A stretch of 64,000 nt of DNA. Source: Thioalkalivibrio sulfidiphilus HL-EbGr7 (lineage in GTDB: Bacteria; Pseudomonadota; Gammaproteobacteria; Ectothiorhodospirales; Ectothiorhodospiraceae). Positions 13,820 to 16,917 of the stretch are shown here, in pieces. The position numbers and the translations under genes are program-made. The stretch covers positions 3,296,501-3,360,500 of the forward strand of contig NC_011901.1 in assembly GCF_000021985.1 (NCBI RefSeq), given 5' to 3'. Under the pieces are notes generated by a model. It made no database searches. It worked only from the letters and a program-made list of their open reading frames with translations, and was not told where the DNA came from. How positions within the stretch are numbered: the first letter of the stretch is position 1; each line of letters begins with the position of its first letter.

Positions 13820-14860
13820 ATGCAGAGAAGACAATTCCTCAGGGCCGGCGCGGCCCTGACGGCGGGTTGCGCCGTGGCCGGCCCCCTGGGCCTGCTCTCC
13901 TGGTCCCCAAGGGCCGAGGCTGCCAACCTGAGCGTCACCCTCACTGCCCGCCGGGGCAACGTCACCATGATCGACGGCACCCAGGCGACCCTGTTCACCT
14001 TCAGCCACAACGGCCAGATGTCCTTCCCCGGCGCCACCCTGGTGTGCCAGGAAGGCGACACCCTCACGGTGAACCTCGTCAACCAGCTCTACACCCGGGT
14101 GGCCTTCAAGGTGGGCGGCACCGCGATCCGCACCACCGTGAACAGCCGCAGCTCCAGGGCCTTCAGCTTCAACGCCCCGGCCGCCGGCACCTATCTCTAC
14201 TACGACGACCAGAACAACGGCGTGAACCGCATCATGGGCCTGCACGGCGCACTGATCGTCATGCCCTCGGGCATCAAGAACCGCTCCTTCAGCGGCGGCC
14301 CCACCTTCGTGCGCCAGTACAAGTGGCTGCTGGGCAACGTGGACCCGGTCTGGGGCCAGCAGGTGCAGAGCCAGGGCGACAACCGGGTCACCCAGATCAA
14401 CCCGGACAGCTTCATGCCCAGGTACTTCACCATCAACGGCCTGGCCTACGAGGACACCCACGAGTACAACACCGAGATCTCCGGCCATTACGGCGAGGCG
14501 GCCCTGGTGCGCCTGCTCAACGCCGGCGGCATGGTGCACTCGCCCCACTTCCACGGCAACCACGTGGACATCGTCAGCGTCAATCACCAGAACTTCGCCA
14601 GCAACCGCAAGAAAAAGGACGTCGTCTCCATGTTCCCCCTGGACGTGCGCGACGTGATCTTCCCCTTCAACCCGCCCCCCGATGCCTGGCCGCCGGTCAC
14701 GCCCAACCGCATGCAGCATTTCCCCATGCACTGCCATGCGGAGATGTCGCAGACCGCCGGCGGCGGACTCTACCCCCACGGCATGCACGCACCCATCGTG
14801 ATGGGTATGGCACCTGCCCAGGAGTCCGACCTGAACCAGACCGTGAACAACCTGCCCTGA
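13820..14860 (+). CDS. Multicopper oxidase-like protein, Tat-exported (half 1)
   Basis: 346 residues with a twin-arginine signal (RRQFLRAGAALTAG, residues 3-16), so it is probably exported folded. Two cupredoxin-like domains follow. The second carries the C-terminal-type copper motifs of multicopper oxidases: HSPHFHGNH (240-248) and MHCHAEMS (303-310). In the first domain the expected Y-H-x-H motif reads YYDD (127-130), so its copper ligands are missing. The start has the ribosome binding site GGAGGAG. The next gene carries the complementary motifs (HHHG and YHCH), suggesting the pair forms one enzyme. Probable roles are copper handling, metal oxidation or oxygen-dependent oxidation; the substrate is unknown. 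Confidence 0.85.
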   Translation: MQRRQFLRAGAALTAGCAVAGPLGLLSWSPRAEAANLSVTLTARRGNVTMIDGTQATLFTFSHNGQMSFPGATLVCQEGDTLTVNLVNQLYTRVAFKVGGTAIRTTVNSRSSRAFSFNAPAAGTYLYYDDQNNGVNRIMGLHGALIVMPSGIKNRSFSGGPTFVRQYKWLLGNVDPVWGQQVQSQGDNRVTQINPDSFMPRYFTINGLAYEDTHEYNTEISGHYGEAALVRLLNAGGMVHSPHFHGNHVDIVSVNHQNFASNRKKKDVVSMFPLDVRDVIFPFNPPPDAWPPVTPNRMQHFPMHCHAEMSQTAGGGLYPHGMHAPIVMGMAPAQESDLNQTVNNLP

Positions 14861-14903
14861 GGCAGGCCCTCACACCAGGCATTCGATTCGAGGAGACAAG
14901 ATC

Positions 14904-16019
14904 ATGAGCAGAATGAGCACAACCAGCAGCGGCGGTCATAGCGGCGGCGGCGGTGGCATGGGTGGCGGCGGCATGGGCGGCGGCTGCAACGCCGGCATCG
15001 CCGGCAACTGCGGCCTGCACATCGACGCCCCGGCCACCCCCAACCGGGTCACCCCGGACGTGGAGTTCTTCCTGACCACCTTCATGCAGGGCAGCCAGGT
15101 CATCAACGGTGTCGAGGTCCCCATCTGGGGCTTCAACATGGACGGCGGTATGGGCGGTATGGGCGGCATGGGCGGCGGTGATGACGGCGGCATGGGTGGT
15201 GGCGGCGGCGGCATGATGGGCGGCACCATGCCCAACCCGCCCATGCGCGTGCGTCAGGGCCAGATCGTGCACACCCACCTGAACGCCATGGCCATGATGG
15301 CCCCGCACACCGTGCATCACCACGGCATCGAGCCCGACACCTTCAACGACGGCGTGGGCCACTACTCCTTCGACGTGCTGGGCCAGTACACCTACCAGTG
15401 GCGCGCCTCCCAGGCGGGGACCTACTTCTACCACTGCCACGTGAACACCGTGCTGCACGCGGAGATGGGCATGTACGGCGCCCTGATCATCGACCCGCCG
15501 GAAGGCCCTGGCCGTGCCTACCAGAACGGCCCCACCTATGACGTGGAGGCCATCTGGGCGGTGGACGACATCGACATGGCCTGGCACTGCAAGCCCTGGG
15601 ATGCGGCCCTGTGCGGCGGGGACGCGGGTCTCAATAACTTCAACCCGGAGATCTTTTGCATCAACGGCATCGGCGAGGACCTGAGCGAGACCCACGCCTC
15701 CGTGGTGGTCAACGCCAGTCGCGGCCAGCGGGTGCTTCTGCGCTACATCATGGCCGGCTACGTGCCGCAGAAGGTGAAGTTCCCCGCTGCCCTGGGTGCC
15801 TTCCAGGTGGTGGCCGAGGACGGGCGCCCCCTGCCGGTCATCGAGACCAAAGCCGCGGGCAGCGAGATCCTGATGACACCAGCGGAGCGTTACGACCTGA
15901 TCTTTACGCCCCAGACGGCCGGTTCCTTCCCGGTGGAGATCGATTTCTTCGACTACCGGGCGGCCTCCGGGAACCTGCGCAAGATCGGTTCCATCCGCAC
16001 CCGCTTCAACATCTCGTGA
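14904..16019 (+). CDS. Multicopper oxidase-like protein with Gly-Met-rich loops (half 2)
   Basis: 371 residues. The N-terminus (about 9-28) and a second stretch (about 80-108) are made of Gly, Met and Asp, in GMGGG-type repeats that could bind copper through methionines. The first cupredoxin domain holds the trinuclear and type 1 motifs HHHGIE (138-143) and YHCHVNTVLHAEMGM (176-190). The second domain (about 205-371) lacks obvious copper ligands. There is no signal peptide, unlike its Tat-exported partner 43 bp upstream, so it may be co-exported as a folded complex. A ribosome binding site (GAGGAGA) precedes the ATG. It is shorter than single-chain three-domain enzymes, which supports a split arrangement. 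Confidence 0.83.
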   Translation: MSRMSTTSSGGHSGGGGGMGGGGMGGGCNAGIAGNCGLHIDAPATPNRVTPDVEFFLTTFMQGSQVINGVEVPIWGFNMDGGMGGMGGMGGGDDGGMGGGGGGMMGGTMPNPPMRVRQGQIVHTHLNAMAMMAPHTVHHHGIEPDTFNDGVGHYSFDVLGQYTYQWRASQAGTYFYHCHVNTVLHAEMGMYGALIIDPPEGPGRAYQNGPTYDVEAIWAVDDIDMAWHCKPWDAALCGGDAGLNNFNPEIFCINGIGEDLSETHASVVVNASRGQRVLLRYIMAGYVPQKVKFPAALGAFQVVAEDGRPLPVIETKAAGSEILMTPAERYDLIFTPQTAGSFPVEIDFFDYRAASGNLRKIGSIRTRFNIS

Positions 16020-16079: not shown

Positions 16080-16865
16080 ATGCCAAAACAACTGCCTTGC
16101 CTGTTCGCCGTTCTGCTCTTGCTGCTGGCCGGCCATGCACAGGCATCCCATGCCAACGAGGCCGACTGGCGGCTCTTCGAAGCCGCCTACCGGGGAGACG
16201 TGGCCGAGGCCACCCGCCTGATCAAGGAGGGTGCCGACGTCAACCGGGCCCACCGGCCCTGGGGGCTGACGCCCCTGCTGGTGGCCGTGGGGGTGAGCGA
16301 GCCCATGACTGACCTGCTCATCCGCGCCGGCGCCGACCTGAACGCCCGGGAACGTGAAGGCGTGACCGTGCTCATGAAGGCGGTACACGGCGGCAGGCCC
16401 GAGGTGGTGCATCGCCTGCTGCAGGAACCGGAACTGGTGATCGACACCCCCGGCCCCCGGGGCAACACCGCGCTGACCTACGCCATCCTGTACGGTCACG
16501 CGGAGATGGTGGAGGCCCTGATCGAGAAGGGTGCCGACGTGAACGTCGCCCGGGCCAACGGCACCACGCCCAAGGCCATCGCCGACCACATGCACGCCCT
16601 GGCCCTGGCCATGCCCGAGGCCGGCGCGCATCACGGCCACCATGGCCATCACGCCAGCCATCATGGCGACATGCATCACGGCCATGCCGGTCATGACCAC
16701 CCCATGCGCACCCGGGCCGAGGCCGTGGCCTCCTACAGCCGCGTCCTGGCCGCCCTGGAAAACGCCGGCGCCGCGAAGGCCCCTCAGCAATGCCACCACA
16801 ACCGTGGCGAACCCCATAACCACAACAATAAACAACAACATCACCACCACCACGGACACCACTGA
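16080..16865 (+). CDS. Exported ankyrin-repeat protein with His-rich tail
   Basis: A 261-residue protein with a signal peptide (residues 1-23, ending HAQA). Four ankyrin repeats (about 27-165) have clear family marks: DWRLFEAAYRGDVAEATRLI, GADVNRAHRPWGLTPLLVAV, GVTVLMKAVHGGRPEVVHRLL and GNTALTYAILYGHAEMVEALI. The tail has two histidine clusters: about 184-210 (HHGHHGHHASHHGDMHHGHAG) and the extreme C-terminus with runs of His and Asn. Such clusters commonly bind Cu, Zn or Ni. It is the third gene of the copper oxidase operon and is followed by a terminator. A periplasmic copper buffer or metal-delivery role for the two oxidases is a reasonable inference. Confidence 0.88.
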   Translation: MPKQLPCLFAVLLLLLAGHAQASHANEADWRLFEAAYRGDVAEATRLIKEGADVNRAHRPWGLTPLLVAVGVSEPMTDLLIRAGADLNAREREGVTVLMKAVHGGRPEVVHRLLQEPELVIDTPGPRGNTALTYAILYGHAEMVEALIEKGADVNVARANGTTPKAIADHMHALALAMPEAGAHHGHHGHHASHHGDMHHGHAGHDHPMRTRAEAVASYSRVLAALENAGAAKAPQQCHHNRGEPHNHNNKQQHHHHHGHH

Positions 16866-16891
16866 GGAGTCCCTGACGGTGCACAACCCTG

Positions 16892-16917
16892 ACGCCCCCT
16901 CGTGGGGCGTTTTCTTT
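16892..16917 (+). terminator. Rho-independent terminator of the copper oxidase operon
   Basis: The hairpin ACGCCCC-CTCGT-GGGGCGT is followed by TTTCTTT, 27 bp past the ankyrin gene stop. Confidence 0.9.

Follow-up and report, generated by a model that had tools for sequence, protein, structure and literature searches.

Type C two-domain multicopper oxidases (2dMCOs), represented by BCO from Nitrosomonas europaea (3g5w) and the metagenomic mgLAC (2zwn), are homotrimers encoded by a single gene, which carries all four copper-binding motifs (PMC3192119, PMC13151041). In the bacterial six-domain MCOs the histidines of the trinuclear cluster lie between domains 2 and 3 and the mononuclear site lies in domain 2, and in ceruloplasmin the cluster is found between domains 1 and 6 (PMC3600357). 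The MCOs described in the open-access literature that we searched are single-gene monomers or homotrimers; neither a heteromeric or split MCO nor an MCO subunit exported as a hitchhiker was found in that literature.

The pair of genes analyzed here comes from a 64,000-nucleotide stretch of the genome of Thioalkalivibrio sulfidiphilus HL-EbGr7 (henceforth the window, meaning the whole stretch analyzed; all features discussed lie on its + strand). Protein A (13820..14860; 346 aa; start at 13820 with MQRRQFL, coding to 14857, stop at 14858-14860) is a putative Tat-exported cupredoxin subunit with the domain-2 half of a trinuclear cluster, and protein B (14904..16019; 371 aa; coding to 16016, stop ending at 16019), encoded 43 nt downstream, is a signal-less cupredoxin subunit that would complete the cluster and adds a predicted type 1 copper site. 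As in the type C enzymes, each chain comprises two cupredoxin domains, according to secondary structure, fold and Pfam matches, and A and B are paralogues (27-29% identity over about 125 residues). From sequence features, conservation, adjacency, co-divergence and predicted geometry we consider it likely that A and B are obligate subunits of one periplasmic MCO, which originated when a type C gene was duplicated and the copies lost complementary ligands, shares a cluster between domain 2 of A and domain 1 of B, and is co-exported by Tat; copper binding, catalysis and co-export are inferred. The enzyme apparently works only as a two-protein complex, the copper content, activity and stoichiometry of which are inferred or not shown.

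Division of the copper ligands

A and B were aligned together with intact type C enzymes that other genomes encode as single genes, and the four motif blocks fell in register. In domain 1, the type C motif HTIHWHG corresponds to HTVHHHG in B and to VAFKVGG in A, and YHCHVNVNEH corresponds to YHCHVNTVLHAEMGM in B and to YYDDQNNGVNRIMG in A. In domain 2, HAIHIHGH is matched by HSPHFHGNH in A and by QKVKFPAA in B, and HDHVDTH by HCHAEMS in A and by EIDFFDY in B. Therefore, each chain lacks exactly those motifs that its partner retains: compared with the intact type C enzymes, both domain 1 ligand motifs are gone from A and both domain 2 motifs from B, and the eight histidines of the trinuclear cluster are split, with four in domain 2 of A and four in domain 1 of B.

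Protein A matches Cu-oxidase_3 in Pfam (E-value 8.1e-9), and a profile of 26 of its homologues identified the type C 2dMCOs 2zwn and 3g5w as the best matches, over the full length. Its domain 1 (13952..14266) is degenerate, with VAFKVGG and YLYYDDQNNGVNRIMG standing where HxxHxHG and YHCH...H....M would be expected from the alignment to type C enzymes and B and from column counts. Domain 2 carries motif III, HSPHFHGNH (14537..14563), with the inferred cluster ligands His243 and His245, and motif IV, MHCHAEM (14726..14746), with the inferred ligands His304 and His306. His243, His245, His248, His304 and His306 are invariant in 26/26 homologues, whereas the first histidine of motif III (His240) is kept in 17 of the 26 and Cys305 in only eight, as a clade-specific feature (L, F, N, T, S or V elsewhere). 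The conserved ligand content of A is reduced to H-x-H plus H-x-H, and the variability of Cys305 and of the first motif III histidine suggests that A gives ligands to the trinuclear cluster only, like the second domain of type C enzymes. A second (half) type 1 site in A could be ruled out, because the cysteine of MHCH is so rarely kept and domain 2 of A has no conserved cysteine. The invariant His248 is not explained by the copper-site assignment.

Protein B matches Cu-oxidase_3 with an E-value of 1.1e-13, and 3g5w (2.5e-17) and 2zwn are its best sequence matches in the PDB. Like the type C enzymes, and unlike A, it carries the type 1 ligands in its first domain and shows the HCHVNxxxH spacing. 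Motif I (HTVHHHG, 15306..15326) is predicted to supply His135 to the type 1 site and His138 and His140 to the cluster, while motif II (HCHVNTVLHAEMGM, 15432..15473), which aligns with HCHVNVNEH of 3g5w, would supply His177 and His179 to the cluster and Cys178, His185 and Met188 or Met190 to the type 1 site. All of these residues (H135, H138, H140, H177, C178, H179, H185, M188 and M190) are invariant in 24/24 homologues. The ligand positions of domain 2 (15759..15960) are degenerate, with QKVKFP and VEIDFFDY in place of HxHGH and HDH and no conserved histidine in these columns. His228 (15585-15587; D..WH, between the domains) is likewise invariant in 24/24 homologues and unexplained by the copper-site assignment. 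A Gly-Met-rich loop ahead of motif I (15140..15230) is predicted to be disordered (pLDDT <50 at residues 444-464 of the tethered model discussed below).

At the lost positions no conserved ligand was found across the 26 A and 24 B homologues, which reach down to about 30% identity; with the eight cluster histidines and the ligands of the type 1 site invariant in 24-26 homologues, the pattern is far beyond chance. An earlier note on this DNA, made from the sequence alone, had proposed that each protein holds half of the usual ligand set, quoting HSPHFHGNH, MHCHAEMS and YYDD from A and HHHGIE and YHCHVNTVLH from B, and had described a ligand-free second domain and Gly-Met-rich loops in B. The motifs are all present (YYDD within YLYYDD and HHHGIE within HTVHHHGIE), no ligand motif was found in the second domain of B, and the 134 residues ahead of motif I do contain 30% Gly and 17 Met. 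The complementarity of the blocks stands, but the cysteine of MHCH cannot be counted as a conserved ligand of A. A complete copper site within either protein alone, which was to refute the proposal, is absent in the sense that neither chain holds all eight cluster histidines, and by the same count the pair fails the definition of a type C enzyme as one with all eight in one gene product. Thus, the four motifs of a type C 2dMCO are divided between two non-identical and individually incomplete subunits. By descent the pair belongs with the type C two-domain oxidases, and we regard it as a genuine and conserved case of a split 2dMCO, for which the sequence support is good and experimental proof is lacking.

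NirK is homologous to these proteins and appears among their sequence and fold matches, so that a heteromer reducing nitrite and not O2, in which a type 1 site in B would be combined with a mononuclear type 2 copper between B and A, has to be considered. However, the type 2 site of NirK needs three histidines, and here eight histidines of the trinuclear-cluster type are invariant. The scores for the NirK equivalog TIGR02376 (36.5 and 41.2 bits) remain far below its cut-off of 296.3 bits, and the best matches of the B sequence and the A profile are the type C structures rather than NirK. We find a nitrite reductase of this kind very unlikely.

Linkage and co-divergence of the two genes

In a survey of 369 genomes of the class, A (counted at an E-value of 1e-20 or better) was found in 23 genomes at 27 loci, and B lies directly downstream on the same strand in 27/27, although two loci sit at contig ends (G326 and G036) and show just the beginning of B, and a third (G101) has a damaged junction. 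The intact junctions that were measured range from an overlap of 4 to a gap of 108 nt, and the genes flanking the pair are otherwise unrelated between genomes. The split pattern occurs in over 15 families, and most of the reading frames are intact. Homologues that occur singly had been named in advance as evidence against the pairing, and no such A was encountered in the class survey. A search of the same 369 genomes with B gave five matches without A: three read as ordinary complete type C single-gene enzymes (G334, G191 and G022), a fourth (G170) resembles such an enzyme by score, its sequence being unread, and for the fifth (G317) the contig begins inside B.

In the phylogenetic trees A forms one clade and B forms another, and their subclades largely match. 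The distances between A proteins and those between B proteins are correlated (r 0.84; none of 5000 permutations gave a value as high), which in part reflects shared species history. A and B might still be independent degenerate cupredoxins, co-expressed and without a common site, with B as a type 1 electron carrier and A as a structural or copper-storage protein; each does contain a dead domain, and B by itself would hold a whole type 1 site. Yet a carrier has no need of the invariant His138, His140, His177 and His179, nor would A need exactly four complementary histidines, and their universal adjacency amid unrelated neighborhoods would be hard to reconcile with separate functions. We therefore hold such independence to be improbable and retain the shared enzyme as the preferred reading. 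To an annotator, A or B alone looks like a defective oxidase or hypothetical protein, which the recognition of a split cluster changes, and the pair illustrates how duplicated genes can degenerate in complementary ways.

Profile searches across phyla drew few relevant genomes, and the viral contigs searched contained no A-B pair. The pair occurs also on alphaproteobacterial plasmids. No intact A-B fusion gene was found, the only case being a frame-changed one on an Arthrobacter plasmid, where the A frame enters a stretch weakly matching the N-terminus of B and B goes on in another frame; this may be a fusion that arose naturally, with a single change of frame, or else a sequence error. Plasmid pTC1 carries an A homologue with a remnant of B only, a fragment about 7 kb away. 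At the G101 locus (L025) the C-terminus of A and the start of B seem to have been lost at the junction, by a deletion or frameshift, in a degenerate locus or through an assembly error. The A homologue at L049:702-4085 (G318) has a C-terminal fusion to a long series of repeated domains that is lipoprotein-like. Two relatives of A on actinobacterial plasmids (L093:3719-6066 and L095:2704-4945) adjoin NRAMP/mntH manganese transporter genes.

Modelled interface and related ring-shaped oxidases

A and B were modelled with AlphaFold2 as tethered single chains, a modelling device that implies no claim of read-through. For one homologous pair (L019), in which A and B share a frame, the stop codon of A was read as Gly; for the window pair the stop was likewise read as Gly and one four-base step was made in the intergenic stretch. 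Both models (L019: pTM 0.86, pLDDT 84; window: pTM 0.83, pLDDT 82) align in order on four consecutive domains of human ceruloplasmin (residues 1-697), the former over 507 residues (4.0 Å, Z 25.2) and the latter over 495 residues (3.9 Å, Z 25.0), and the Foldseek search with the L019 model gave MnxG (9bxa) as the second-best match, with factors V and VIII among the top ones. The ordered superposition places domain 2 of A against domain 1 of B in the models, in the position of the domain 2/domain 3 contact. This is the meeting of motifs that the earlier note had expected of a heterodimer prediction; since the models are tethered dimers, the linker may favor domain 2 of A beside domain 1 of B, and no distances at the copper sites stand behind the placement. 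In the window model, moreover, pLDDT is about 51-78 around motif IV of A and about 68-78 in parts of the motif region of B.

As the tether could bias the modelled interface, A and B might instead pair through the opposite face (domain 1 of A against domain 2 of B) or form homo-oligomers, the reciprocal losses then marking an enzyme that is turning into a pseudogene, as the damaged-looking loci G101 (at the junction) and G317 may suggest. Nevertheless, the opposite face has no conserved metal ligands, two models gave the same arrangement of consecutive domains, and the pattern has been conserved across so many families, with largely intact frames; we give this possibility hardly any weight.

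In the mechanism that we propose for the shared enzyme, a type C two-domain gene would have been duplicated and complementary ligand loss would have turned the copies into A and B. In the ancestor, as in the type C enzymes, which are the best structural and profile matches, each trinuclear cluster would have lain where domain 1 of a protomer meets domain 2 of the next. B would now contribute a working domain 1 and A a working domain 2, with domain 1 of A and domain 2 of B remaining as structural elements. Electrons from the substrate would first reach the type 1 copper in B (His135, Cys178, His185 and Met188 or Met190) and pass through the His-Cys-His element to the cluster at the interface, bound by His243, His245, His304 and His306 of A and His138, His140, His177 and His179 of B, where O2 would be reduced to water. 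The Met-rich loop of B lies near the type 1 site, which is reminiscent of the Cu(I) oxidase CueO and allows no more than a guess, of low confidence, that the substrate of the pair is a reduced metal ion; in the actinobacterial group the NRAMP/mntH neighbors are a hint of manganese.

Among the known ring-shaped oxidases, the six-domain MCOs (MnxG, GSU1252 of Geobacter and the MCOs of Leptothrix) resemble A and B together in that the latter superpose on four consecutive domains of the ring, and in the bacterial enzymes the cluster occupies the same place as the predicted interface. If ring packing of consecutive two-domain units is taken as the mark of this group, the pair conforms to it over about 500 residues, in the tethered models only. 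However, the six-domain enzymes are single long chains, while here two chains have two domains each, the predicted mononuclear site falls in domain 1 of B, the equivalent of domain 3 and not of domain 2, and the window pair lacks a third two-domain module. With ceruloplasmin and factors V and VIII the pair shares the pseudo-three-fold ring in which some or all copper sites have been lost (Z 25 to ceruloplasmin), but these are encoded by one gene. No third related subunit was found in the genome of the window, where, besides A and B, a single ordinary three-domain oxidase matched the family. A ring of three subunits cannot alternate A and B, and the third position could be occupied by a second A or a second B, or could be empty.

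Two genomes, G008 (L040) and G629 (L061), carry a three-gene version, B'-A'-C in a row, with Sec-like signals. B' keeps the domain 1 ligands only, A' the domain 2 ligands only, and in C no ligands were found in either domain where readable (in G629, C is cut by the end of the locus). Phylogenetically, A' and C fall with A (94/92), while the grouping of B' with B is weak (86/67). G036 has the order A-B-B2, if its contigs join as their overlap suggests (C15 and C80; L059, L083 and L091), and both B copies retain all domain 1 ligands. These loci suggest heteromeric rings with a single active site. It is conceivable, though we would not yet favor it, that the pair and the B'-A'-C version, as single-site heteromeric rings, represent an unfused step between homotrimeric two-domain enzymes with three sites and six-domain enzymes of the MnxG type with one, with Tat hitchhiking enabling the export of such a split enzyme; the pair might then stand midway on the path to the six-domain oxidases, MnxG and ceruloplasmin among them. 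The tandem of B', A' and the dead C at L040:146-9377 lies downstream of a gene for a secreted protein of very large size (at least 1733 aa). Dockerin-like NNDGFTNGLD repeats occur at the C-terminus of this protein and also at that of C.

Export and the adjacent ankyrin gene

Only Tat carries folded complexes, and in hydrogenases and similar hitchhiker complexes the Tat signal is borne by one subunit only. Protein A has such a signal peptide (13820..13921; RRQFLRAGAALTAGCAVAG...AEA, with an RRxFL-type motif; Pfam TAT_signal, E-value 1.7e-4), whereas the Gly/Met-rich N-terminus of B (14904..14990) shows in the window sequence neither a hydrophobic segment nor an in-frame start upstream. A partner with a Tat signal and a cargo without any, the arrangement that defines a hitchhiker, is found in the window and 18 other pairs, with the RRxFL-type motif in all 19. 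In four pairs A has a Sec or lipoprotein signal and B a Sec signal of its own, and in two (L024 and G036) a Tat-type A is followed by a B with its own RR-plus-lipobox (Tat-lipoprotein-like) start. A signal-less B beside a Sec-type A was never seen among the pairs compared (Fisher p 0.001 for the association of Tat-type A with signal-less B, uncorrected for kinship, the pairs being phylogenetically non-independent).

As only Tat moves folded complexes, the combination of Tat-type A with signal-less B is what hitchhiking predicts. The earlier note was right to assign a Tat signal to A alone, and its suggestion that B is exported as a folded hitchhiker gains support, signal-less B occurring only beside Tat-exported A. 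Separate signals in homologues, which it regarded as contrary evidence, do exist in some B proteins, but mostly beside an A with a Sec or lipoprotein signal, which rules hitchhiking out. Thus, B seems to leave the cell on the Tat signal of A, the actual co-export being inferred; judging by the predicted signals of B in L024 and G036, hitchhiking is not universal. In the proposed mechanism A and B would fold and assemble in the cytoplasm and exit together through Tat, which would make the pair a natural system where assembly must precede Tat export.

The gene downstream of B (16080..16865; Pfam Ank_2) encodes an exported protein with ankyrin repeats, the C-terminus of which is very rich in His; it is followed by a terminator-like hairpin (16891-16911) and probably belongs to the same operon. 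It adjoins the pair in the Thioalkalivibrio loci and in one other genome only, and apart from it no constant third gene was found at the A-B loci; the ankyrin protein is possibly an optional accessory with a metal-binding role. In Thioalkalivibrio ALJ16 (L036) the ankyrin gene is followed by a gene for an ArsR-type regulator.
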